Below, piece after piece: positions 22,782-45,315 of a stretch of DNA of 64,000 nucleotides; the stretch's first letter is position 1, and each line of letters begins with the position of its first letter. The position numbers and the translations under genes are program-made. The stretch comes from Mycobacterium sp. BK086 (GTDB taxonomy: Bacteria; Actinomycetota; Actinomycetes; Mycobacteriales; Mycobacteriaceae): contig SNWL01000003.1 in assembly GCA_004362315.1 (NCBI GenBank), forward strand, positions 1,488,001 to 1,552,000, written 5' to 3'. Below the pieces are notes generated by a model. That model ran no database searches and was not told where the DNA came from. It saw nothing but the letters and a program-made list of their open reading frames with translations.

Positions 22782-24197
22782 ATGACGACGAGCGAAGAAG
22801 TCAGGCCCAAGCGTCGCGGCGTCATGCAATCCCTGACCGACGTGTCGGTGAGGTACGTCGAACGCCTGATGCCCGACCCCTATCTGTTCGCGGTCATCCT
22901 GACCGTCATCGTCGCCGCACTGGTCGCGTTTCTGGTGAAGGGCGCCACGCCCGGCGGCATGCTCAAGGCGTGGTACGGCGGCGTGTGGGGACAGCAGAAC
23001 ATCTTCACGTTCGCGTTCCAGATGGTTCTGATCCTCGTCACGGGCTACACGCTGGCCGAGGCGCCGGTGCTCAAGCGCGGCATCGTGTACATCGCAGGCA
23101 AGCCGAAGAATCAGGTTCAGGCCGCCCTGCTCTGCTTCGGGGTGAGCGCCGTGCTGCACCTGTTGAACTGGGGGCTCGGACTGGTCGCCGGGGCCCTGGT
23201 TGCGCGGCAGGTCGCAAAGCGGTTGCCCGACACGCACTTCGGCTATCTCATCGCGGCGTCGTTCATGGGCTTCGTTGTGTGGACGCAGGGGCTCTCGTCG
23301 TCGATCGCGCTGGCCAACACCGACAGCAGCAGCCCAATCAACGTGATTCACAAGATGACTGGGCTCACGGTGCCGCTTTCGGAGACGATCTTCCAGCCGT
23401 ACAGCTGGCTGTCGGTGCTCGTCGTGCTGGCGGTGCTGGCGCTGGCGATCTGGCGGATGGCGCCGTCGAGCACCCTTGCTCCCGATCCTGCAGTGTTCGA
23501 CGAGGAGGAGGGGACGGAGGCTGAGGCCGAACCGCAGGGCAAGAAGACGTTCGCGGAATGGCTGGAAAACCTGTGGATTCTGAACGTCCTGATCTTTGTC
23601 GCGGGCATCGCGTACTTCTGGATCAGTGGTTTCGCGCTGAACATCTCCTCGATGATCATGTTGCTGACGATCACCAGCGCGCTGCTGCACAAAACTCCGA
23701 TCCGGTTCATCCGGGCTTTCACCAGTGCCGCGAAGGTGTCGGGTCCACTGCTGCTGCAGTATCCGTTGTACGGCGGCCTGATCGGCTTGCTCGGATACCA
23801 GGCGACCAAGGACATCAAGCCGCTGCAGACGCTGCTGGCCGAGGCACTTGTGCACGGTGCGTCGGAGTACACGCTGCCGTTCCTGACGTTCGTCGGCTCG
23901 TTGATAATCAGCCTGTTCGTGCCGTCCGGCGGAGGGCACTGGGCCGTGCAGGGCCCGATCGCCGTCGACTCGGCACTGGCGATCGGCCAGCACTCGGAGG
24001 GCTATCTCGGGTTGATGTCGATGGCGGTCGCCGTCGGCGAGGGGGTGGCGAACATGATCCAGCCGTTCTGGTTGCTGCCCCTGCTGGCGATCGCGAAGCT
24101 GAATGTCCGCCAGGTGATGGGTTTTACGATCGTCGCGTTCCTGATCGGGTTCGTTGTGCTGGGCGCCACCATGCTGATTGCGCCGCACGTGATTTAG
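22782..24197 (+). CDS. Short-chain fatty acid transporter, AtoE family
   Basis: 471 residues with about 12 membrane helices. MPDPYLFAVILTVIVA near the start and the long run ending in GANMIQPFWLLPLLAIAKL-like segments are typical of AtoE/short-chain fatty acid permeases, which import acetoacetate, butyrate and related acids by proton symport. A Glu-rich cytosolic loop lies at about residues 235-260. GGGGGTAGATC precedes the ATG. No beta-oxidation genes are adjacent, so it is monocistronic. Confidence 0.88.
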   Translation: MTTSEEVRPKRRGVMQSLTDVSVRYVERLMPDPYLFAVILTVIVAALVAFLVKGATPGGMLKAWYGGVWGQQNIFTFAFQMVLILVTGYTLAEAPVLKRGIVYIAGKPKNQVQAALLCFGVSAVLHLLNWGLGLVAGALVARQVAKRLPDTHFGYLIAASFMGFVVWTQGLSSSIALANTDSSSPINVIHKMTGLTVPLSETIFQPYSWLSVLVVLAVLALAIWRMAPSSTLAPDPAVFDEEEGTEAEAEPQGKKTFAEWLENLWILNVLIFVAGIAYFWISGFALNISSMIMLLTITSALLHKTPIRFIRAFTSAAKVSGPLLLQYPLYGGLIGLLGYQATKDIKPLQTLLAEALVHGASEYTLPFLTFVGSLIISLFVPSGGGHWAVQGPIAVDSALAIGQHSEGYLGLMSMAVAVGEGVANMIQPFWLLPLLAIAKLNVRQVMGFTIVAFLIGFVVLGATMLIAPHVI

Positions 24198-24209: not shown

Positions 24210-24237
24210 CCGTCCGCGGCGCCGTCAGCGCCGAATA
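24210..24237 (+). promoter_or_regulatory. SigK-type promoter of the geranylgeranyl-reductase-like gene
   Basis: CCGTCC (24210-24215), 16-bp spacer, CGAATA (24232-24237). One base off the CCATCC seen at the other sites here. The -10 ends 6 bp before the ATG at 24244, so the transcript would be leaderless. Confidence 0.65.
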
Positions 24238-24243
24238 CCGCAT

Positions 24244-25398
24244 ATGGGCACTCAGCGTTATGACGTGGCGATTGTGGGCGGCGGGCCGGCAGGTTCATCG
24301 GCCGCGTGGCAAGCCGTACAGACCGGAGCGCGGGTGGTCGTCCTGGACAAGGCCGAGTTCCCCCGCGACAAGCCGTGCGGCGATGGTCTGACTGCCCGCG
24401 CGGTCAGTCTTCTTCAGAAGATGGGCTTGGCCGACGAGGTCGACAAGTTCCACCGCGTCAACCGGGCCACGATCTACAGCCCCCATCGGTTGGAGCTGTC
24501 ATTCCCGAGCCGGCCCGGCATGCCCAACCACGGCCACTGCGCCCCACGGCGCGAACTGGACACGCTGCTGCTCGAGAACGCCCGGACAGCGGGCGCCGAG
24601 GTGCGCCAGGGCACCGAGGTCGCCGGCCCGATCCTGGACGGCGACGGCCGAGTGACGGGGGTGACGCTCAAGGATGGTGAGCCGGTTTATGCCGACGCGG
24701 TGATCGCCGCCGACGGCGCCTACTCGCCCGTCAAGCGTGGCCTCGAGCTGACCTCGCGGTACAACGGCTACTCGGCGATCGCGATTCGCGCCGAGATGCC
24801 GGCGAATCGTCCGGACTCCGACTCCCTCGACATCTATCTGAAACTGGCGTTCCAAGGCGACCAACTGCCCGGCTACGGCTGGGTGTTCCCGATGGGCGCG
24901 GGCCGGCTCAACATCGGGCTGGGATACGTCAACAGCTACAAGCGGTGGCACGAGATCAACGTCAGCCAACTCCTGGGCGAGTTCCTCGCGACCCTGCCCC
25001 GCGAGTGGGAGCTGCCCACCGTCGACGAGCTGCGAAAGGACAAGGCAGTGCAGGCCTGGCGACTACCGATGGGCTTCACCGCGTGGCCGCCGTGGCGACC
25101 GGGTGTGGTCTTCGCCGGCGACGCGCTGGGCGCTGCCAGACCGGCGTCGGGTGCCGGGATCTCCAAGGCATTGCAGTCCGGGCTCGCCGCCGGCGAGTGT
25201 GTCATCGCCGCACTCACAAATGGCGGCCCCGACGACTTCACGAACTACGAACAGCGCATCACCGCGACTTGGGGCCGGGAGTACCGCCACGGCAGGCTCT
25301 TTCACCGGCTGGCAGGCATCCCGGCGGTGGCCAACACCGGTCGCCGCGTACTCGACGGCGTGAGTCACGCCAAAATGCGTGTGTCCCTACCCTTCTAA
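24244..25398 (+). CDS. Geranylgeranyl-reductase-family FAD oxidoreductase
   Basis: 384 residues. FAD-binding GxGxxG ([11 protein letters not shown]) at residues 11-21, the family motif [11 protein letters not shown] near residue 40, and the second FAD motif ([20 protein letters not shown]) near residue 290. These flavoproteins saturate isoprenoid double bonds; MenJ of M. tuberculosis hydrogenates menaquinone, and other members reduce polyprenyl lipids. A SigK-type promoter abuts the start codon, placing it with the neighbouring lipid-methylation genes. It overlaps the convergent methyltransferase gene by 4 bp. Confidence 0.88.
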
Positions 25399-26273
25399 GC
25401 AGGCTTGACGAGGGTGAACTGACACACGTCGGTATAGCCGTCGCGAAACAGCTGGGCGCACCCGGTCAGGTAACGCATGTAGCGGTCGTACATCTCTTCT
25501 GACTGCAGCGCGATCGCGTCGTCCTTGCGGGCCGCCAGCGCTGCCGCCCAGATCTCCAGCGTGCGTGCATAGTGCGGCCGCAGTCGCTGAGCGCGCTGCA
25601 GTTCGAAGCCCGCCTTGGCCGCGTGCTCGACAACGGTGCACGGCTTGGGCAGATCACCGCCGGGGAAGATCTCGTCCATGATGAACTTCACGAATCGCAG
25701 GATCGTCATCGTCAGCGGCAGCTCGTTGGCCGCGAACTCTTCATCGGTCGGCTTGATGATGGTGTGCAGCAACATGATCCCGCCGGGCGGCAGCAGCGTG
25801 TACGCGGTCCGGAAGAAATCGTCGTAACGATCGCGACCGAAATGCTCGAAGGCGCCGATGGATACGATCCGGTCGACCGGCTCCTCGAACTGCTCCCAGC
25901 CCTGCAGCAGCACCCGCTTGGAGCGCGTGCTGGAGTTGTGGTCAAGCAATCGCTGCGCACTGGCTTGTTGGTTGCGGCTCAGGGTCAGGCCGATGACGTT
26001 GACGTCAAAACGCTGCACGGCGCGCTTCAGGGTCGCGCCCCAGCCGCACCCGATATCGAGGAGCGTCATGCCCGGCTGCAGCCCCAGCTTGCCCAACGAC
26101 AGATCGATCTTCGCGAGCTGAGCCTGTTCCAGGGTCATGTCGGCACGCTCGAAGTAGGCACAGCTGTAGGTCTGGGTGGGATCCAGGAACAGCCGAAAGA
26201 ACTCGTCGGACAGGTCGTAGTGCGCCTGCACATCGTCGAAATACGGCGCGAGGACGCGGGTTTTGTCCGTCAT
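25395..26273 (-). CDS. Mycolic-acid cyclopropane synthase/methyltransferase family (CmaA/MmaA/PcaA-like)
   Basis: 292 residues, matching the 285-300 of mycolate-modifying enzymes. SAM motif I is [15 protein letters not shown], followed by GLTLSRNQQ and the family motif [17 protein letters not shown]. The N-terminal [19 protein letters not shown] and [17 protein letters not shown] are hallmarks. It adds a methyl or cyclopropane at a double bond of a mycolate chain on the acyl carrier. ATG 26273 sits 7 bp after the -10 of a SigK-type promoter, which fixes the start; a longer frame to 26477 would overlap the divergent gene. Confidence 0.92.
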
Positions 26274-26280
26274 ATATCGG

Positions 26281-26308
26281 TATTCGGCGCCGACGGTCCC
26301 ACGGATGG
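26281..26308 (-). promoter_or_regulatory. SigK-type promoter of the mycolate methyltransferase gene
   Basis: Minus strand: CCATCC (26308-26303), 16-bp spacer, CGAATA (26286-26281). The -10 ends 7 bp before the ATG at 26273. It is arranged back to back with the plus-strand promoter at 26341. Confidence 0.8.
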
Positions 26309-26340
26309 GGCCGGGGCCGTCAATCAAGGGAATCCGCGGC

Positions 26341-26368
26341 CCATCCGGTGGCGTCGCCGCGACGAATC
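26341..26368 (+). promoter_or_regulatory. SigK-type promoter of the FAD-oxidase/ufaA1 operon
   Basis: CCATCC (26341-26346), 16-bp spacer, CGAATC (26363-26368). The -10 ends 6 bp before ATG 26375, predicting a leaderless mRNA and ruling out the upstream ATG at 26348. Confidence 0.85.
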
Positions 26369-26374
26369 GCTTGC

Positions 26375-27679
26375 ATGGGGAACGGAGTTGTCGGTCGGCG
26401 ATCAATCGCCGTGGTGGGTAGTGGAGTGGCCGGTCTGACAGCCGCGTACATGCTGGCGCAGCGCGACCGGGTGACATTGTTCGAGGCTGATACCCGGATG
26501 GGCGGGCACGCGCACACTCATGTCGTCGATCGCGGCGACGGGCAGAGCGTCGCGGTCGACTCCGCGTTTCTGGTGCACAACGACCGGACGTACCCGACGC
26601 TGTGCCGCCTGTTCGACGAACTCGGCATCGCCACCCACGAAACCGAGATGTCGATGTCGGTACGCGCGGACGGAATCGGACTCGAGTACGCGGGCGCGCG
26701 CGGCATCGGTGGGCTGTTCCCGTCGTTGGCGACGGCGACGCGCCCGCAGTACCTGCGCATGCTCACGGAGGTGAAACGGTTTCACCGAACCGCTACCGCG
26801 TTGTTGGCCGGCGAACTCACCGACGACCTCGAAACACTTGGTTCGTTTCTGGGCAGGCACAACTTCTCGCGGTTCTTCGTCACGCACTTCATGACACCGC
26901 TGGTCGCCGCCGTATGGTCCTGCGCCCCGGGAGCGGCAATGGACTATCCGGCCCGCTACCTCTTCAATTTCCTGCACCACCACGGGATGCTGTCGGTGTT
27001 CGGCTCACCGAAATGGCGTACGGTCCAAGGTGGTTCGGCTACCTATGTCAACAAGGTGCTGGAGCGCATCGACGAGGTGCACGCGGGCATGCCGGTTCAT
27101 GCCGTCGAGCGCAATCGGGACGGTGTCGAGGTGACGGCAGGGTGCCTGGGCCCGCGACAGTTCGACTCGGTGGTGGTCGCGACGCATCCCGACCAGGCCC
27201 TGTTGATGCTCGTGAGTCCCACCGATGCCGAACGGCGGGTGTTGGAGGCGATTCCCTACAGCACCAATCACGCACGGCTGCACACCGACGAATCGGTGTT
27301 GCCGCGACGGCGCCGGGCCCGCGCGTCGTGGAATTATCTGGCGACCGACAACCACGACGAGGTGGTGGTCACCTACGACGTCAGCCGGTTGATGGGTATT
27401 GCGGGACCACGACGTTTCCTGGTGACTCTCGGCGACGGGCATCGGATAGATCCGAACCAGGTCGTGGCGGAGATGACGTACGCGCATCCGCTGTATACAC
27501 CGGAATCTGTTGCAGCCGTGCAGCTTCTGCCCACGCTCGGTGATGACCGCGTGGTGTTCGCCGGCGCCTACCACGGGTGGGGATTCCACGAGGACGGCGC
27601 CGCGTCCGGACTGGCCGCGGCGCAACGCCTGGGCGCCCGATGGCCGGTGACCGAAGAGCTGGAGGATGTCGCGTGCTGA
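26375..27679 (+). CDS. FAD-dependent amine-oxidase-like protein (Rv0449c type)
   Basis: 434 residues. The dinucleotide-binding motif [16 protein letters not shown] lies near residue 13, followed by the NAD(P)/FAD-oxidoreductase signature [15 protein letters not shown], and a C-terminal FAD motif around [16 protein letters not shown]. Proteins of this family are always found beside DUF1365 and cyclopropane-synthase genes and are thought to act on modified fatty acyl chains, either as desaturase/reductase or as a helper of the methyl transfer. First gene of a four-gene operon driven by a SigK-type promoter; the next gene overlaps by 7 bp. Confidence 0.87.
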
Positions 27680-28392
27680 TCCCCGCGCTGTATCGGACCC
27701 GCGTCTGGCATCACCGGGCGGCGCCGGTCGAATATTCCTTTCGGCACCGCGGCTATAGCTGGTATGTCGATGTCGACGACCTCCCCAGGCTGCCACGATG
27801 GCTTCGCCCGTTCGCGCGAATCGACCCGCGCGACCACCTTGACGGCCAACCCGGGGACTCGCTGCGTGATCGCGTCGACGCCGTGCTGGCCAGCCGCGGG
27901 CTGAGTGCGAGCGCGGGCAGCGTGACGGCGCTGCTGCAGGCTCGCGTCCTCGGTTATGTGTTCAACCCGCTGAGCCTGTATTGGTGTCACGATGCCGACG
28001 GCACGGTGCAGCACGTAATCGCCGAGGTGCACAACACCTATGGCGGCCGCCACGCGTACGTCGCGAGTGGCGATGGTCAGCTCGCGACCGTGTCCAAAGC
28101 CTTTTACGTATCGCCGTTCAACGATGTTTCGGGCCGCTACCTGATCAACGCTCCGCGCCCGGACAAGACCCTGGAGGTGACGATCACCTTGTTGCGCGAC
28201 GACCAGCCGCCGTTCGTGGCGGCGCTGCGCGGCGATCAACTCCCGGTGAGTACCGCACAGCTGCTACGGCTGCAGCTCATCGCGCCGATAGCTCCGCTTC
28301 GAGGGGCATTGGCGATCCGGCGGCACGGAATTGCACTGTGGCTGCACAAGATTCCGGTGGTACCGCGTCAAGAGAAGGCGGAACTGCGATGA
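27673..28392 (+). CDS. DUF1365 family protein (Rv0448c type)
   Basis: 239 residues from GTG 27673, seven bases inside the previous gene. DUF1365 hallmarks: LYRTRVWHHRAAPVEYSFRH at the start and GYVFNPLSLYWCHD in the middle, then AEVHNTYGGRHAY and VSPFNDVSGRY. The fold and activity are unknown, but it is invariably encoded with a CFA synthase and the FAD-oxidase, so it takes part in the same fatty-acid modification. Its TGA overlaps the next ATG. Confidence 0.88.
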   Translation: MLIPALYRTRVWHHRAAPVEYSFRHRGYSWYVDVDDLPRLPRWLRPFARIDPRDHLDGQPGDSLRDRVDAVLASRGLSASAGSVTALLQARVLGYVFNPLSLYWCHDADGTVQHVIAEVHNTYGGRHAYVASGDGQLATVSKAFYVSPFNDVSGRYLINAPRPDKTLEVTITLLRDDQPPFVAALRGDQLPVSTAQLLRLQLIAPIAPLRGALAIRRHGIALWLHKIPVVPRQEKAELR

Positions 28393-29663
28393 CCCTGGAG
28401 TCCACCGCGATTCCTGGCGGGACGGTCGACGGCACTGCCGGGACAGGAGTACCGCGGGTGCCCCGCGGACCCTTGGCGGCGATGTCGGGTGCGGTGGCTG
28501 CCCGGTTGTTGCGCCGTACCGCGGCGGCACTGCCGCTTCGGTTGTGCTATCCCGACGGCTCGGTGGTCGGCGCTGCCGATCCATCCATGCCGAGTTTTAT
28601 TCTGCACCAACCGGATCGACTGGCCCGGCGGATCGGCGCGAGCGGGTTGATCGGTTTCGGTGAATCCTATATGGCCGGCGAGTGGGATAGTTCGAACCTG
28701 GCCGGCGCACTGACCGTCCTGGCGAGCGGAGTGGCGGATTTGGTGCCGCGCGGACTGCAGCGGCTACGGCCTCTTGTGCTCAGCGGCCAGCCGCGCTCGG
28801 CGCGCAACAGCCCCGCCCAGGCCAGGCGCAATGTGGCTGCGCACTACGACTTGTCCAATGCGATGTTCGCCGAGTTTCTCGACGAGACCATGACGTACTC
28901 GTCCGCGCTGTTCGATCAGCTGCCCGCATCGCGGGAGCACCTTGCCGATGCCCAACGGCGCAAGATCAACCGGCTGCTCGATGCGGCCAAGGTGGGGCCG
29001 GGAAGCCGGGTGCTCGAAATCGGCACTGGCTGGGGCGAATTGTGCGTCCAAGCCGCGGGCCGGGGTGCGACAGTCCATTCGATCACGTTGTCGGCCGAGC
29101 AGCGTCAGCACGCGCTGCAGCGGGTGGCCGCCGCCGGGCTGTCGGACCGCGTCCGGATCGACCTCGCCGACTACCGCGAGGTAGAGGGACGTTACGACGC
29201 CGTGGTGTCGGTCGAGATGATCGAGGCCATCGGGTACTCGTTGTGGCCCGGCTACTTCCGCGCGCTGGACGACCTTGTCACTCCCGGCGGGCGCGTCGCG
29301 ATCCAGGCAATCACCATGCCGCACAACCGGATGCTGGTGAGTCGCAACACTCACACCTGGATCCAGAAGTACATCTTCCCCGGCGGGCTACTGCCCTCGA
29401 CGCAGGCCATCGTGGAGATCACCGAGAGCCAGACTCGGCTGCGAACGATCGACATGGTATCGATGCGCGATCACTACGCCGAGACTCTCCGGCTGTGGCG
29501 GGAGCGGTTCATCGAAAGTCGGGATACGTTGGCGGCATTGGGGTTCGACGCGGTCTTCGCCCGGATGTGGGAGCTTTACCTCGCCTATTCCGAGGCCGGC
29601 TTCCGGGCCGGTTATCTTGATGTGTACCAATGGACCTTCGCCCCTACGGGAGCTCGCCAGTGA
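28389..29663 (+). CDS. ufaA1: Cyclopropane-fatty-acyl-phospholipid synthase-type methyltransferase
   Basis: 424 residues, close to the 427 of M. tuberculosis UfaA1 (Rv0447c), and in the same gene order. N-terminal lipid-binding domain (about 1-130), then the SAM methyltransferase domain: AAHYDLSNAMFAEFLD, MTYSSALFD, motif I RVLEIGTGWGELCVQAA, and VSVEMIEAIG with the bicarbonate-binding Glu. UfaA1 has been reported to convert oleate to tuberculostearic acid. Start ATG 28389 overlaps the previous stop (ATGA). Confidence 0.9.
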   Translation: MTLESTAIPGGTVDGTAGTGVPRVPRGPLAAMSGAVAARLLRRTAAALPLRLCYPDGSVVGAADPSMPSFILHQPDRLARRIGASGLIGFGESYMAGEWDSSNLAGALTVLASGVADLVPRGLQRLRPLVLSGQPRSARNSPAQARRNVAAHYDLSNAMFAEFLDETMTYSSALFDQLPASREHLADAQRRKINRLLDAAKVGPGSRVLEIGTGWGELCVQAAGRGATVHSITLSAEQRQHALQRVAAAGLSDRVRIDLADYREVEGRYDAVVSVEMIEAIGYSLWPGYFRALDDLVTPGGRVAIQAITMPHNRMLVSRNTHTWIQKYIFPGGLLPSTQAIVEITESQTRLRTIDMVSMRDHYAETLRLWRERFIESRDTLAALGFDAVFARMWELYLAYSEAGFRAGYLDVYQWTFAPTGARQ

Positions 29664-30445
29664 ATTTTCTCCTCGTCGCCGCAGCATCGGTGGCCGCGGT
29701 CATCGTGGTCCACGGCGTGACATTCCTGATCGCGCGGCGTATCGGGCGTTACAACATCGTCGACATCACCTGGGGTCTCGGGTTTGTGGCGGTCGCCGCC
29801 GTCGCGGCAGTGGTCGGCACCGGGGACCTGTTTCGCCGTCTGCTGTTGCTGGCGCTGACCGCATTGTGGGGGTTGCGGCTGGCCTGGCACATGTACGTCA
29901 AGATCAAGGGCCACGGCGAAGACCCCCGCTACCGTGACCTGCTGCGCGGAAACTTCGCACCGGGCAACGTCATCCGGAAGATCTTCGGCACCCAGGCCGT
30001 GGCGACGCTGTTCGTCGCACTTCCCCTGATGCTCTCGGCCACGCTGGGCCCGACGCGTTCCGCACGGGTTGTGTTGATGGGCATCGGCGTGGTGGTGTGG
30101 CTGGCCGGCTTGGTGTGCGAGTCCGTGGGCGATCACCAATTGCGGGCGTTCAAGCGGGACCCCGCGAACAAGGGGACAATCATGGACCGGGGGCTGTGGA
30201 GCTGGACACGGCACCCGAACTACTTCGGGGACGCCTGCGTGTGGTGGGGGCTCTGGCTGGTGAGCATCGCAGGCTGGGTTTCGCTGGCGACCGTGGCCAG
30301 CCCCGTGGTGATGACGTACTTCCTGGTGCATGTCACCGGGGCCAGGCTCACCGAAAAGTACATGAGAGACCGGCCGGGGTTTCGCGAATATTGCTCGCGG
30401 ACATCGTATTTTGTGCCGCTGCCACCAAAATCCCGGACCCGGTGA
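29660..30445 (+). CDS. DUF1295 membrane protein, steroid 5-alpha-reductase-like (Rv0446c type)
   Basis: 261 residues, GTG start overlapping the ufaA1 stop (GTGA). About seven membrane helices. The C-terminal RGLWSWTRHPNYFGDACVWW and the GFREYCSRTSYFVPL tail are the NADPH-binding marks of the isoprenylcysteine-methyltransferase/5-alpha-reductase fold. It may reduce a methylene or enoyl intermediate made by the upstream methyltransferase. Last gene of the operon, convergent 3 bp from the second CFA synthase. Confidence 0.87.
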   Translation: MNFLLVAAASVAAVIVVHGVTFLIARRIGRYNIVDITWGLGFVAVAAVAAVVGTGDLFRRLLLLALTALWGLRLAWHMYVKIKGHGEDPRYRDLLRGNFAPGNVIRKIFGTQAVATLFVALPLMLSATLGPTRSARVVLMGIGVVVWLAGLVCESVGDHQLRAFKRDPANKGTIMDRGLWSWTRHPNYFGDACVWWGLWLVSIAGWVSLATVASPVVMTYFLVHVTGARLTEKYMRDRPGFREYCSRTSYFVPLPPKSRTR

Positions 30446-30448
30446 CGT

Positions 30449-31711
30449 CTACATCGACCAGGGCCGACCCCAGGGCATGGCGGCCTCTCCCCCGGCGTCG
30501 GGCTTGACGGCCAGAATCTGGTCCACACCCATCCGGCCCTGTTCGAAGGCCAGCCCGCCACCGACCAGATAGAGCCGCCACACTCGGGCGACCTCCTCAC
30601 CGGCCAGAGCGACGAACTCGTCGTAGCGACGCTCAAAGGTGTCGATCCAGCAGTCGACGGTGCGGACGTAGTGTTCGCGCATGGCCTCGACGTCGCGCAC
30701 CTCGAAACCGGCGTCCTGCAGGTAATTCACGGTCTGCCCCATCGGCCGCATGTGCATGTCAGGCGCGATGTAGGACTCGATGAACGCCCCGCCACCCGGC
30801 GCGGCGTCCGCACCCCGCGACATCTGTTGCAGCACGAGTCGGCCGGTGGGCTTGAGCGACCGGTACAGCATCGCCGCATACGTGCCGTAATTCTCCTCGC
30901 CGACATGCTCGCCCATCTCCACCGAGGCCACCGCGTCGAACGGCTCACTGTCATCAGCGAATTCGCGGTAGTCCTGCAACCCCACGTTGACCCGCCCGGT
31001 CAGACCGCGATCCGCCACTCGGGCGACCACGAAGTCACGCTGCCGCACCGACAGCGTGATGCCGGTGGCGTGCACCCCATAATGCTCCGCGGCGAACAGG
31101 ACCAGTGAGCCCCAGCCGCAGCCTACGTCGAGCAGCCGCATGCCGTCGGTCAGACCGAGTTTGCGGCAGATCAGGTCGAGTTTGGCGGTCTGAGCTTCAT
31201 GCAACGTCTGCCGATCGTCGGTGAAGTAGGCCGACGAGTACGCCATGTGGTCGTCGAGCAGCAGACGATAGAAGTCGTTGGACAGGTCGTAGTGGTGGGC
31301 GATGGCCGCGCGGTCACGCCGTCGGCTGTTCCTGCGGCCTTTCAGCCTGGCTTCGGTGCTCGGCGGCGGTGGCGGCGGGCCCAGCGCCCCGAGCGTGGCC
31401 GCCTGCCGCAGTGCGTCCGCCAGCTTGCGCGCGGTCGGACGAGTGGGCGTCTGGCCGTCCGATCGGCGCCACACCTCACGCAACCCCTCGCCGAGATCCC
31501 CGTCGACGTCGAGATCACCCGCCACAAAGGCGCGCGCAAGACCCAGTTCACCTGGCGCCCACACCAACCTGCGCAAGGCCCGCCGCGACCGGATGACCAG
31601 GACCGGGCCCGCCGGTCCGGCCTCGCTGCCATCCCAGGCCCGGATGCGGACCGGCAGCTCGATATCGAGGGCCGTGCCGACGAGTGACTCCAGGCGCTGC
31701 GCGGTGTTCAC
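30449..31711 (-). CDS. Second cyclopropane-fatty-acyl-phospholipid synthase-type methyltransferase
   Basis: 420 residues, GTG start 31711. N-terminal domain, a Pro-rich linker (about residues 110-118), then the methyltransferase domain: IAHHYDLSNDFYRLLLD, MAYSSAYFTDDRQTLHEAQ, motif I RLLDVGCGWGSLVLFAA, and SVEMGEHVG. It is clearly different from the ufaA1 copy, so it probably acts on another lipid or double-bond position. Its promoter is SigK-type, with the -10 ending 6 bp before the GTG, and it follows rskA by 36 bp on the same strand, so it may also be read from the sigK operon. Confidence 0.9.
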   Translation of the reverse strand: MNTAQRLESLVGTALDIELPVRIRAWDGSEAGPAGPVLVIRSRRALRRLVWAPGELGLARAFVAGDLDVDGDLGEGLREVWRRSDGQTPTRPTARKLADALRQAATLGALGPPPPPPSTEARLKGRRNSRRRDRAAIAHHYDLSNDFYRLLLDDHMAYSSAYFTDDRQTLHEAQTAKLDLICRKLGLTDGMRLLDVGCGWGSLVLFAAEHYGVHATGITLSVRQRDFVVARVADRGLTGRVNVGLQDYREFADDSEPFDAVASVEMGEHVGEENYGTYAAMLYRSLKPTGRLVLQQMSRGADAAPGGGAFIESYIAPDMHMRPMGQTVNYLQDAGFEVRDVEAMREHYVRTVDCWIDTFERRYDEFVALAGEEVARVWRLYLVGGGLAFEQGRMGVDQILAVKPDAGGEAAMPWGRPWSM

Positions 31712-31717
31712 AACCGG

Positions 31718-31745
31718 TATTCGTCGCCGACAGCCTGGCGGATGG
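31718..31745 (-). promoter_or_regulatory. SigK-type promoter of the second CFA synthase
   Basis: Minus strand: CCATCC (31745-31740), 16-bp spacer, CGAATA (31723-31718). The whole promoter fits in the gap between rskA and the GTG at 31711. Confidence 0.8.
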
Positions 31746-31747
31746 CG

Positions 31748-32446
31748 TCAGGTCAAGGACAGCTTGGCGAAGATCTGTCCGGTCGGCTGCGGCGAACCTG
31801 TTCCTGGCTCGACGGTGAACGCGAGCGCGTTGGTGTTGCCGAGATCGGTGAGCACCGCCGTCGTCGACGGCCGCACCGCGTCGCCAGTCATCGTGCCTGC
31901 CGATCTCGGGGTCCCGCCGTCGAGCAGCCACATCTGATAGACCGAGCCGGGCGGGGGCGGTGCGACGTTGTTCATCACCAGCACCCCGGCATTGGTGTCG
32001 CGCGAGTACACGAAGGTTGCCACGCCGCCGGTGGGGATGGCGGCGGTGGTGGTTTGGACGTCGGAGGCCTCGAACACTCGCGCGGCCGTCGGCGTGCTCG
32101 GGGGGCGCAGGACCACGACCGTGCTGAACACGCCGAGCCCGATCACCAATGCCGCGGCGGCCGCGATGAGCGGTCTGCGCCAGGAACGCCGGGGCGCTGC
32201 GGGCCCCGCGGCAACCGCCGCCAGGATCCGCTCCCGCAATTCGGGCGGAGGCTCGACGGCGGTCGCGTCTGACACCAGGGCCATCGTGTCGCGGTAGGCG
32301 CGCACCTCGTCGCGGAAGGCGTTGGCCACAGCCGCGGGCGCGGCGTCGAGATTGCGGTCGATGTCGGCGCGTTGGTGACCGTCGATGGCGCCGAGGGCAT
32401 ACACGCCCGTGAGGTCCATCAGCTCGAAATCCGCGGGGCCGGTCAT
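31748..32446 (-). CDS. rskA: Anti-sigma-K factor
   Basis: 232 residues, the same length as M. tuberculosis RskA as I recall. A cytosolic anti-sigma domain (residues 1-85, [20 protein letters not shown]) is followed by one membrane helix (about 92-113) and an extracytoplasmic RskA domain ([18 protein letters not shown]). It holds SigK at the membrane until regulated proteolysis releases it. The ATG at 32446 overlaps the sigK stop (ATGA), giving coupled 1:1 synthesis. Confidence 0.95.
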
Positions 32447-33006
32447 GACACCCCCAGGCAGTTGCGTAGGCCCCGCAACGCATCTCGGATGCGCGACTTG
32501 ATGGTCGACAGGTTGGCCGACAGCCGCGCCGACACCTCGGGATAGGTGAGTCCGCCGTAGTACGCCAGCTCGATGCACTCGCGCTGAACGTCGGTGAGCG
32601 AGTCGAGGCACTCGACGACGCGGCGGCGATCCTCTCCCCCGATCACCGCGTCGGCGACGTCGTCGCGCGGGCGGTCGATGTTGGCCGCGCCGTAGCGATC
32701 CTCGCGCCGGCGTCCGGCCTCTTCGGAGCGCACCCGCTCGACGGCGCGCCCGTGGGAGACCGTCATCAGCCACGCCATCGCTGAGCCGGCCGCCGGGTCG
32801 TACTTGTCGGCATTGCGCCACACGTGAAGGAAAATGTCTTGGGTGGTTTCCTGGCTGTAGCCCGGATCCCGCAGAATGCGCAGTACCAGCCCGTAGACCC
32901 GCGCTTTGGTCAGATCGTAGAACGTGGCGAAGGCGTCAGCGTCCTGGCCCGCTGTCCGGCCCAGCAATGCCTCGAGCTCGTTGCGCGGCGGCGCCGATCC
33001 GTTCAT
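32443..33006 (-). CDS. sigK: ECF RNA polymerase sigma factor SigK
   Basis: 187 residues, the length of M. tuberculosis SigK, with very similar sequence. Sigma region 2 ([38 protein letters not shown]) and region 4 ([36 protein letters not shown]) are intact. Start ATG 33006 is taken because it gives the conserved N-terminus; the longer frame does not. Its own SigK-type promoter lies 82 bp upstream, so it is autoregulated. In M. tuberculosis SigK drives mpt70/mpt83 and the Rv0449c operon. Confidence 0.96.
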
Positions 33007-33087
33007 CGAGCCATAGCCTAGCCACTCATAGGCTGCCGACCCCACTGATTCGGTCGGCCGAGACCCCAGCCGAACATCCATGACAGA

Positions 33088-33115
33088 GATTCGTCGCCGA
33101 AACGGTCATGGATGG
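33088..33115 (-). promoter_or_regulatory. SigK-type promoter of sigK-rskA
   Basis: Minus strand: CCATCC (33115-33110), 16-bp spacer, CGAATC (33093-33088). Predicted 5' UTR about 75 nt, unlike the leaderless units nearby. Confidence 0.8.
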
Positions 33116-42465: not shown

Positions 42466-45315
42466 TCAGCGAAGCTGCGCCGTCTCCGCGTCGTCTCCGC
42501 CCGCCGTCGCCCGAAAAATCCGCCGCAGTTTGTCACGCGAACGAATCCTCAACTTGGCGAAGATGTTTCGCAGATGAGTGTTGACGGTATGCGGCGACAG
42601 AGACAGGTACTCTGCGACCTCACGGTTGGTCGCCCCTTCCGCGACCAGCTCGACGACTCGCCATTCCATCCGGGTCAGGCTTTCCCATCCGGTGCTTTCC
42701 CGCACGCGAACGATCCGACGATGCACACCCAAATCAGCCAACGCACGCGCGACACGACGAGCGTCCGCCGTGCTCTGCGCATGGCTGAACGTGTCGAAGG
42801 CGTCGGACAGGTGAGCTGCGGCGCGTTGAGCATCGCCGTTCTTGGCGAGCGCCACGCCGAGGTCCTCGACTGCGGCCGCGAGGAGCAATGGGCGCTCGCA
42901 TCCGGCGTAGGCGTCCACTGCAGCACCGAGACTGGCGGCGTCGTCATCGAGCAGCGCTCGGGCGTGCATCGACACGGCGGCAAAGAGCGGTATGTCCCTG
43001 TCAGTCTCCAAATTCCGGATCGCCGACGCCACGAGTTCGTGCAATCGACCCCCGTTTGCACCCGCGGCGACCCGAGCCGCGAGCACGGTGTGATCGAGAT
43101 CCAGGGCGAGCAGCGGGGTTCCCAGCAGCTCACCTCCCCGCTCGAAGGCATCCGCGGCGCGCACGGCGTCGCCCTGCTGCCACGCCATGAAAGCCTGCGC
43201 ACCGCAGGCGGCCCGGCGCCGGGCAGGGCCGCGGTCCATCAGATAGTCGGCGGCAAGGCCGGCGATCCTGGCCAAGTTCCGGTCTTCGGTACGGGCGGCC
43301 AACTCGGACAACACGAAAACGTGGATAAGGCCGGACACGCCGTTGTTCATGAATCGGACACCGTCGGGCAGCGACTCCACCGCGCTGCGCGCCTCATCCA
43401 GCTTGCCTTGGATCACCGCGCACATCGCCGTCAAATGCACGAAATTCTGTGCGATGACGGTGTCTTCACCTCGACGTGCCGCATCGACACCACGGTTGAT
43501 TGCTTCTGTCGCGTCCTCCAACCGCCCAAGCGTCAGAGCGACGTTTGCGTGATGGAAGTTCGCGAGATGAGTGACGGCAGTGCCGACGTCGCCGGCCCGG
43601 ATCCGGCTACGCACGTCCGCGAGGGTCGCGAGGCTTTGCGATCCGAAGCCGTTGGCACACTCCACATTGGCCATCGCCAGGCACGCCAGCACCTTGACAC
43701 TGGCGTCGGTGGACGACGCGTTGTGTGCGTCGATGGCCGCAGAGCGGGCACGATCAGTCTGACCGTCCATCATGACGTTGTAGGCCAGCCAGCCCAGATG
43801 CTGTGCACGCGTCTCGGGTGTGATGCCGGTGAGAGCGAGCGACTGCACGTTTTCTTCGGCTCGCTGTCCTGCGACGCGATCGGACAGCTTGGACATGCTC
43901 AGGCGGATCAATGCTTCCCACTCGTCGGGCAGCTCTGCGGCCAGGGAGTCGTCAAATAATCGCCTTGCCTCGCCGTAACGCTGAGCCCGGTTCAGAAGCC
44001 AGATTGATTGTGCGACAACGCTATTTCGCGCGTGATCATCCGAGCGCATGAGCCTCATCGCATGACAACCCATGTCCGCGGCCCGTGACGGATCGGTCCT
44101 GGACAACGATTCCACCGCCGTCAGCAGTATGGCGACCGCTTTGTCATCACCGATGTCGGCACTGCGCGCCAACTGCGGGGCGACCTCCTCGGCCGTTGCG
44201 CCGACACTGAGCAGAACGTCGACCGACTCGCGCTCGAGCGCCCGGCGCACCGCAGCGGGAACCGCATCGCGAGCGGCATGACGCACCAGGTCGTGTTTGA
44301 AGCGCAACCGGTCGCCTGCCTCGCTGAGAAGATCGGCGCGTACCGCTTCCCCGACGAAGTCGATGAGGCTGGACGGATGGCGCTTGACCATCCGGCCCAG
44401 CAAGCCCGCCGAAAAATGATCCGGTAGTACCGCCGCGACGTGAACAAGCTGACGGGTAGCCGGCGAGAGCCGATCGAGTCGCTGCACCATGGTGTCGGTG
44501 AGGCGCCTAGGCACCCGCTCCCCCTCCGTGGACGCTCTGCCGCGGTTGACCCGGACGCGGCCTTCTTCCTCGAGGCCCTGTGTGAGCTCCAATAACAGGA
44601 AGGGGTTGCCGTGCGCCATGGACGTCAGTCGCAACAGATTGTCGTCGAGGTCGGCACTCAGCACGTCGCGCACGATGTCCGCGGCGGCGTCCGCGTCGAG
44701 CGCATCCAGACGAATCCGCCACGCGTCGGACCCCCATCCCGTCACCATCGCCTCGGTGGCGTCTTGCACCATCGGAGCTTTCTCGCCGGACCGCGAAGTC
44801 ATGACCCACGCGATCGGCGAGGACGCCAGATCGCTCATGAGGGCTCGAAAAGCCATCAGCGTGCCGGCGTCTGCCCAGTGGAGGTCGTCGACAAGCACCA
44901 GAAGTGGCGTCTGCGCCGCGGCGGAAGCGATGGCCGAGTGCATTTCGCTGACGAGCCAGTAATGGTTGTCGGGACCAGCGCTGAGCCGCCGCATCGCCTC
45001 GACGTCACCGATCGGAGGTTCAGCGCCGAGGAACGTGGCAAAGAGCAGCGCGAACGGTGCGGCCTGCTGATCCTCGAACGCCTTGCCGAGGAGGGGGCGA
45101 ACGTCGGCGGATAACGCCTTTGCGGCCGCCTCAGACAGGAAGCGTGATTTCCCGATCCCGGGCGGTCCTTCCACCAGCAGGAAGGAACCGATCCCATTCC
45201 TCAAACGGGCGATGACATCGTCGACCACCGCGAGTTCGTCGGACCGACCTCGCAGGGGGAACTCAATGCGGGCAAGGGCACGCCGCGCCGCCTCGTCGCG
45301 TTTGACGGCTGCCAT
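42466..45315 (-). CDS. Large ATP-binding LuxR-family regulator (LAL type)
   Basis: 949 residues from ATG 45315 (AGAGG seven bases before); GTG 45321 is an alternative. Walker A GPPGIGKS at 50-57, Walker B LVLVDDLHWAD near 143, a long TPR-like helical middle, and a C-terminal LuxR helix-turn-helix (LTRMEWRVVELVAEGATNRE, LSPHTVNTHLRNIFAKL). LAL/MalT-type activators bind a small inducer and ATP, then oligomerise on DNA. It faces the end of the alcohol-oxidation operon; whether it controls that operon is not shown. Confidence 0.92.
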   Translation of the reverse strand: MAAVKRDEAARRALARIEFPLRGRSDELAVVDDVIARLRNGIGSFLLVEGPPGIGKSRFLSEAAAKALSADVRPLLGKAFEDQQAAPFALLFATFLGAEPPIGDVEAMRRLSAGPDNHYWLVSEMHSAIASAAAQTPLLVLVDDLHWADAGTLMAFRALMSDLASSPIAWVMTSRSGEKAPMVQDATEAMVTGWGSDAWRIRLDALDADAAADIVRDVLSADLDDNLLRLTSMAHGNPFLLLELTQGLEEEGRVRVNRGRASTEGERVPRRLTDTMVQRLDRLSPATRQLVHVAAVLPDHFSAGLLGRMVKRHPSSLIDFVGEAVRADLLSEAGDRLRFKHDLVRHAARDAVPAAVRRALERESVDVLLSVGATAEEVAPQLARSADIGDDKAVAILLTAVESLSRTDPSRAADMGCHAMRLMRSDDHARNSVVAQSIWLLNRAQRYGEARRLFDDSLAAELPDEWEALIRLSMSKLSDRVAGQRAEENVQSLALTGITPETRAQHLGWLAYNVMMDGQTDRARSAAIDAHNASSTDASVKVLACLAMANVECANGFGSQSLATLADVRSRIRAGDVGTAVTHLANFHHANVALTLGRLEDATEAINRGVDAARRGEDTVIAQNFVHLTAMCAVIQGKLDEARSAVESLPDGVRFMNNGVSGLIHVFVLSELAARTEDRNLARIAGLAADYLMDRGPARRRAACGAQAFMAWQQGDAVRAADAFERGGELLGTPLLALDLDHTVLAARVAAGANGGRLHELVASAIRNLETDRDIPLFAAVSMHARALLDDDAASLGAAVDAYAGCERPLLLAAAVEDLGVALAKNGDAQRAAAHLSDAFDTFSHAQSTADARRVARALADLGVHRRIVRVRESTGWESLTRMEWRVVELVAEGATNREVAEYLSLSPHTVNTHLRNIFAKLRIRSRDKLRRIFRATAGGDDAETAQLR

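Follow-up and report, generated by a model that had tools for sequence, protein, structure and literature searches.

A probable rearranged SigK-RskA regulon with five SigK-type, putatively leaderless promoters in a mycobacterium related to Mycolicibacterium sphagni

In a 64 kb stretch of the genome of Mycobacterium sp. BK086 (contig SNWL01000003.1, positions 1,488,001 to 1,552,000; the whole stretch is called the window below), genes for the sigma factor SigK and the anti-sigma factor RskA lie in one block with predicted lipid-modification enzymes, and one promoter-like motif occurs five times among them. Is the block a single SigK regulon, and do its messages begin at their start codons? We put the probability at roughly 85% that it is a rearranged SigK-RskA regulon of a mycobacterium near M. 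sphagni, and from sequence we infer both transcription by SigK and leaderless messages. Five near-identical promoters, each 6–7 nt before a start codon, head five transcription units: a reductase gene; a mycolate-type methyltransferase gene; a four-gene operon for a flavin amine oxidase-family protein (amox), a DUF1365 protein, a cyclopropane-fatty-acid-synthase-family enzyme (cfa1) and a DUF1295 protein; a second gene of the cfa family (CfaB-like); and sigK-rskA.

Exactly five matches to CCRTCC-N16-CGAAT were found in the window, where the original prediction had placed them (24210-24236 and 26341-26367 on the plus strand; 26308-26282, 31745-31719 and 33115-33089 on the minus strand); 0.09 were expected, and 0 of 100 shuffles reached five. 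Counted from the last base of the −10 hexamer, the reductase promoter (CCGTCC-N16-CGAATA; 24210..24237, plus strand) lies 6 nt before ATG 24244, and the methyltransferase promoter (CCATCC-N16-CGAATA; 26281..26308, minus strand) 7 nt before ATG 26273. Divergent from the latter is the promoter of the four-gene operon (CCATCC-N16-CGAATC; 26341..26368, plus strand), 6 nt before ATG 26375. The promoter of the CfaB-like gene (CCATCC-N16-CGAATA; 31718..31745, minus strand) sits immediately past the rskA stop, 6 nt before GTG 31711, and the fifth (CCATCC-N16-CGAATC; 33088..33115, minus strand) stands directly before sigK. The predicted distance of 6–7 bp was thus measured for four promoters; the fifth is also at 6 nt if sigK starts at ATG 33081, an upstream in-frame ATG.

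Such a motif could be a chance sequence of GC-rich DNA with no promoter behind it. A scan of the whole genome (6.93 Mb), proposed with the original prediction, returned 20 matches to the same pattern and none to the reversed control. About 10 matches would be expected genome-wide at the window shuffle rate, and for eight of the 15 matches beyond the block no frame of at least 100 codons begins within 60 nt, which speaks for chance. The five copies in the block, however, fall within 9 kb, all upstream of genes and at equal spacing, and are kept in relatives; with 20 matches in the genome and none to the reversed control, this clustering is not chance. In addition, 64 of 118 genomes of the genus carry the strict leaderless pattern, and none carries its reversed control. 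We have rejected a chance origin, which we consider extremely improbable. A further match outside the block, at C1:824094, precedes a gene for an mpt83-like lipoprotein and is credible as the sixth SigK site. A scan for the sigma-70 consensus gave 1 site versus 0.8 expected.

The regulatory genes are those predicted: the sigma gene passes the curated SigK model NF007228 (283.1 bits, cut-off 226), and the adjoining anti-sigma gene (rskA; 31748..32446, minus strand) matches PF10099 and PF22618, both above the gathering score. With the SigK-RskA regulon of the M. tuberculosis complex and other mycobacteria, the block shares the SigK and RskA proteins, an mpt83-like target and the type of site. 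We take the enzyme operon to be homologous to Rv0449c-Rv0446c. The block differs from that regulon in three respects: the operon is separated from sigK-rskA and inverted, sigK is immediately preceded by a SigK site, and there are three extra enzymes, each with a SigK site of its own. The original prediction had named two of these, the reductase (24244) and the methyltransferase (25395-26273), as additions to the operon; the CfaB-like gene (30449-31711) has to be added as the third, because the operon's own Cfa enzyme is encoded by the gene at 28389.

SigK homologues are present in 97 of the 118 genomes of the genus, our own included. Taking one region per SigK match outside our own genome, we obtained 97 loci from 96 genomes (one genome gave two), which together with L148-L150 and the window make up a set of 101 loci. 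In 71 of these, 82 promoters were found before homologous genes, and in 70 of the 82 an open in-frame ATG, GTG or TTG lies 6–7 nt past the −10 element: 33/33 before amox, 26/30 before the DUF1365 gene, 3/3 before the CfaB-like gene, 5/9 before sigK, 2/5 before the methyltransferase gene and 1/2 before the reductase gene. ATG or GTG occurs 68 times at offset 6, in frame and open in 61 instances, and 44 times at offset 4, never in frame. Since the motif with a start 6–7 nt downstream recurs ahead of the homologous enzyme operon in many mycobacteria, the prediction of SigK control and of leaderless starts has good comparative support. Leaderless messages are common in mycobacteria (excerpts of PMC3898074), and leaders of 0–3 nt give efficient translation in M. 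marinum (excerpts of PMC8022548); the main texts of these two start-site papers, on M. tuberculosis and M. marinum, respectively, do not mention SigK. The matches to the strict pattern include three dipZ-like genes (L231, L235, L239) with DsbD-type transmembrane and thioredoxin domains, and dipZ is stated to carry a SigK-dependent promoter in a portion of PMC9861118.

Several points weigh against a leaderless SigK regulon. The loci are related, so that 70 of 82 promoters do not amount to 70 independent events. No motif was recovered from 30 of the 97 loci, seven of which carry amox with more than 5 kb of upstream DNA, and 12 of the 82 promoters have no in-frame start at 6–7 nt. Before the reductase gene, the ATG at +6 is out of frame in L300 (same genome as L150) and in genome G043. 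Before sigK, out-of-frame cases occur in L105, L059, L101 and L114; a truncated remnant of the DUF1365 gene accounts for the one in L105. In close relatives (the clade described below), the −35 element reads CCGTCT or CCATCT before sigK in two members, and CCGTCT before the reductase gene in one. Finally, that the repeated motif is the published SigK consensus is our own assumption, made from context.

The rule also has a limit within the regulon. SigK-type sites precede both the enzyme operon and the mpt83-like gene in our genome. The latter gene (C1:824162) encodes a fasciclin-domain lipoprotein by Pfam, and its ATG lies 40 nt past the −10 element, behind AAGGGAG, with an in-frame GTG also at offset 4. 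Among the 30 best mpt83-like loci of a genus search, 18 have a SigK site; in these, the first in-frame start is found at 48–68 nt in 10 and at 2–29 nt in eight, but at 6–7 nt in none. Leaderless translation "as a rule", as the original prediction had it, is therefore limited to the enzyme genes. We had considered whether the bases before the −10 element (many operon promoters have GCTC, those of the block GCGA or GCGC) mark a changed sigma specificity; the idea was dropped because mpt83 promoters in other genomes also end in the GCGC type when read by eye.

In the proposed mechanism, RskA would keep SigK inactive until a signal frees it, and freed SigK would then initiate transcription at, or 1–2 nucleotides from, the start codons. 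Ribosomes would load onto the leaderless messages without a Shine-Dalgarno sequence. With a SigK promoter of its own, the sigK-rskA unit would amplify its own expression, and basal, short SigK probably comes from a TAGGCT element ahead of the sigK family start. The predicted role of the enzymes is to remodel membrane fatty acids by methylation, desaturation and oxidation. If the spacing rule holds, it proposes start codons for SigK operons throughout the genus, and a strict pattern with which to look for further targets.

How sigK itself fits depends on its start codon. The upstream ATG 33081 lies 25 codons before, and in frame with, the family start ATG 33006, giving a frame (32443..33081, minus strand) of 212 amino acids (aa) instead of 187; the NF007228 match begins at residue 30 of the long form. 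With the start at 33081 instead of 33006, the fifth promoter joins the leaderless set, so that all five promoters of the window may be leaderless. Eight nt before the family start lies TAGGCT, a candidate basal −10 element (33015..33020, minus strand). In 87 of the 101 loci, an in-frame sigK start is preceded at 7–8 nt by TANNNT (75 times as TAGGCT), against 10 for out-of-frame starts at 6–9 nt, and this conserved element looks like a basal promoter. We considered that the SigK site before sigK yields an extended 212-aa isoform from a leaderless message, while the basal TAGGCT promoter gives rise to the shorter SigK of 187 aa; we regard this as possible, at somewhat below even odds. In favour, the ATG at +6 is open and in frame with sigK in all five members of the clade, with extensions of 25, 29, 29, 29 and 39 codons; that the frame holds across differing lengths argues that the indels preserved it. 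A second lineage (L133, L134, L174) has an in-frame GTG at +6, located in L133 and L174 40 codons ahead of the sigK family start. Selection on the extension as a protein is nevertheless not clear, pN (nonsynonymous differences) not being clearly below pS (synonymous differences) over such short extensions: within the clade, pN/pS come to 0.08/0.00, 0.16/0.13 and 0.14/0.13; between L133 and L174 they are 0.14/0.23, against a pN of 0.01–0.03 in the sigK body. Only five of the nine SigK sites directly before sigK in the locus set have the frame, and the conserved stretch may partly be retained as promoter DNA.

An extended isoform would have a parallel in sigR-rsrA of Streptomyces coelicolor, whose two promoters yield sigmaR-prime and sigmaR: the SigR-dependent one gives rise to sigmaR-prime, which is 55 residues longer (excerpts of PMC4921905). 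As there, two promoters are predicted here, the upstream one sigma-dependent and leading to the longer sigma factor; unlike there, the message for the longer form would be leaderless, and the anti-sigma family is that of RskA. In M. tuberculosis, sigK is autoregulated via Rv0449cp, and SigK does not regulate the promoter immediately ahead of its own gene (excerpts of PMC7509140), which is in keeping with a basal promoter there; in the window, a SigK site occupies that place. A SigK-type site that resembles those before sigK in L133 and L134 was also seen in a clade member on the strand opposite an mpt83-like gene (L330; G184:C22, near 150253), with no sigK frame behind it.

The usual order in the genus is amox-DUF1365-cfa-DUF1295-sigK-rskA. 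amox was matched in 38 of the 97 loci, in all 38 upstream of sigK on the same strand, and at least one of amox, DUF1365, cfa1 and DUF1295 was found in that position in 79. In the window this order is broken up: the amox-DUF1365-cfa1-DUF1295 string lies on the strand opposite sigK and is detached from it. The divergence of the methyltransferase gene from amox is shared with L137-L139, where SigK sites face both genes and the methyltransferase start is some 107–113 nt from its site.

By SigK, the nearest named relatives are a Mycobacterium metagenome-assembled genome and M. sphagni ENV482 (91 per cent), followed by M. sphagni ATCC 33027 (83 per cent). With SigK at E<=1e-95, the clade comprises five of 396 genus genomes, our own included. 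The block is complete in our genome; L300 lacks the methyltransferase and L298 everything from amox through CfaB, and all five members retain sigK-rskA together with its promoter. Partial matches to the reductase, methyltransferase, amox or CfaB were observed beside full sigK-rskA in L299 (G172:C1:247000-266900) and L297, where the enzyme block seems to be decaying while the regulator stays. With the −35 element read as CCNTCY, the sites recur in the clade before sigK (5/5), the reductase gene (4/4 with a reductase match), the methyltransferase gene (3/3), the CfaB-like gene (3/3 having the gene's start) and amox (2/2 having the full gene). As genus-wide SigK targets, the reductase and CfaB-like genes were rejected on low site counts: clade relatives being counted apart, a site is present in two of the 30 best reductase loci (our own genome and G043) and one of 15 CfaB loci (our own).

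As for the products, the gene at 24244..25398 (plus strand) encodes a geranylgeranyl-reductase-family enzyme dependent on flavin adenine dinucleotide (TIGR02032, 208.4 bits, cut-off 158.8); against the model of the menaquinone reductase MenJ it reaches 189.5 bits, below the cut-off of 700. The methyltransferase (25395..26273, minus strand) belongs to the mycolic-acid cyclopropane-synthase family (NF040660, 482.8 bits, cut-off 390). The operon (plus strand) consists of amox (26375..27679; PF01593), of the family of RSP1091/UfaD; the DUF1365 gene (27673..28392; PF07103, 6.4e-63), whose domain is that of UfaO; cfa1 of the conserved operon (28389..29663; PF02353 and operon homologues), the homologue of which in M. 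tuberculosis we take to be UfaA1; and the gene for a DUF1295 membrane-type protein (29660..30445; PF06966). The CfaB-like enzyme (30449..31711, minus strand; PF02353), extra to the usual operon, scores 309 bits against NF040703, below the cut-off of 650, and has homologues at E<=1e-100 in 13 of the 118 genomes, our own included. A gene for a short-chain fatty acid transporter (22782-24197, plus strand) lies directly upstream of the reductase promoter; it also occurs in L298.

What frees SigK? Its signal is stated as unknown in PMC7509140. By family, amox-DUF1365-cfa match the furan-fatty-acid genes of the singlet-oxygen-responsive sigmaE-ChrR regulon of Rhodobacter sphaeroides. In the core of that regulon (ufaM, ufaD, ufaO, photolyase), as proposed here, an extracytoplasmic function (ECF) sigma factor governs genes for a flavin amine oxidase, a DUF1365 protein and a Cfa-type enzyme; photolyase is linked here to a further SigK target. 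The anti-sigma protein, on the other hand, is an RskA by its model matches and not a ChrR. UfaO homologues carry DUF1365 (excerpts of PMC7380195), and the best Pseudomonas syringae match of RSP_1091 (UfaD) is named a flavin-containing amine oxidase (excerpts of PMC5507510). At family level only, the genes for flavin amine oxidase, DUF1365 protein and S-adenosylmethionine methyltransferase occur together here as in the furan fatty acid pathway. The regulon might thus answer photo-oxidative or singlet-oxygen damage, amox, DUF1365 and Cfa-type enzymes (as the respective counterparts of UfaD, UfaO and candidate UfaM) making furan or related fatty acids, and SigK-RskA corresponding to sigmaE-ChrR. 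We hold this tentatively, the odds being some two to one against it.

Gene neighbourhood hints at light or oxidative membrane damage as the SigK signal. In a survey of plasmid gene strings, in which 4 of 125 matching records were opened, an amox-DUF1365-Cfa string lies beside a sigma factor and ChrR on an Azospirillum plasmid, after a photolyase gene on a Salinivibrio plasmid and before sigK and an anti-sigma gene on a Tsukamurella plasmid; a Rhodococcus plasmid has the string with no sigma gene in view. A photolyase motif follows the mpt83-like gene on the same strand in 15 of the 30 best loci, nine of which also have the SigK site. By contrast, the best mpt83-like genes of four clade relatives (L328-L331) have neither an upstream SigK site nor a nearby photolyase motif. 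Expression of mpk83, mpk70 and phrB increases in M. kansasii on exposure to light, yet the sigK operon is absent from the table of light-induced genes in the part of PMC9861118 that reports them. According to excerpts of the respective papers, RpoE/ChrR of R. capsulatus are nearer to SigK/RskA of M. tuberculosis (34 and 25 per cent) than to RpoE/ChrR of R. sphaeroides (24 and 13; PMC7074977), and RskA is lowered by ultraviolet light in an actinobacterium (PMC8965627). Against a furan product, UfaA1 of M. tuberculosis is reported to make 10-methylstearic acid in vitro (excerpts of PMC5660069), and we found no paper with mycobacteria and furan fatty acid jointly in the focus of its title or abstract.

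Taken to its full extent, SigK-RskA would be the mycobacterial counterpart of sigmaE-ChrR, with light or singlet oxygen inducing furan-type fatty acids together with mpt83-photolyase DNA repair, and the M. sphagni clade amplifying the response via leaderless, extended SigK; we consider this combination unlikely, at perhaps one chance in four. Should the regulon be a photo-oxidative response of this kind, with leaderless messages and lipid remodelling, environmental species would allow a direct test of what signals to SigK. In the titles, abstracts and excerpts that our literature search covered, we found no paper that describes SigK promoters as leaderless, reports a long isoform of SigK or names furan fatty acids as its product in mycobacteria. 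Veyrier 2008, cited as the principal account of how this regulon evolved, may report parts of the present findings.

Two further observations concern our own genome. The mpt83-like gene (C1:824094-824824, site included) is followed by a Pfam-confirmed photolyase gene (L301 10891-12231; L336). In the window, a CCATCC-N16-CGAAC site at 42685-42723 (plus strand) has an ATG 8 nt downstream.

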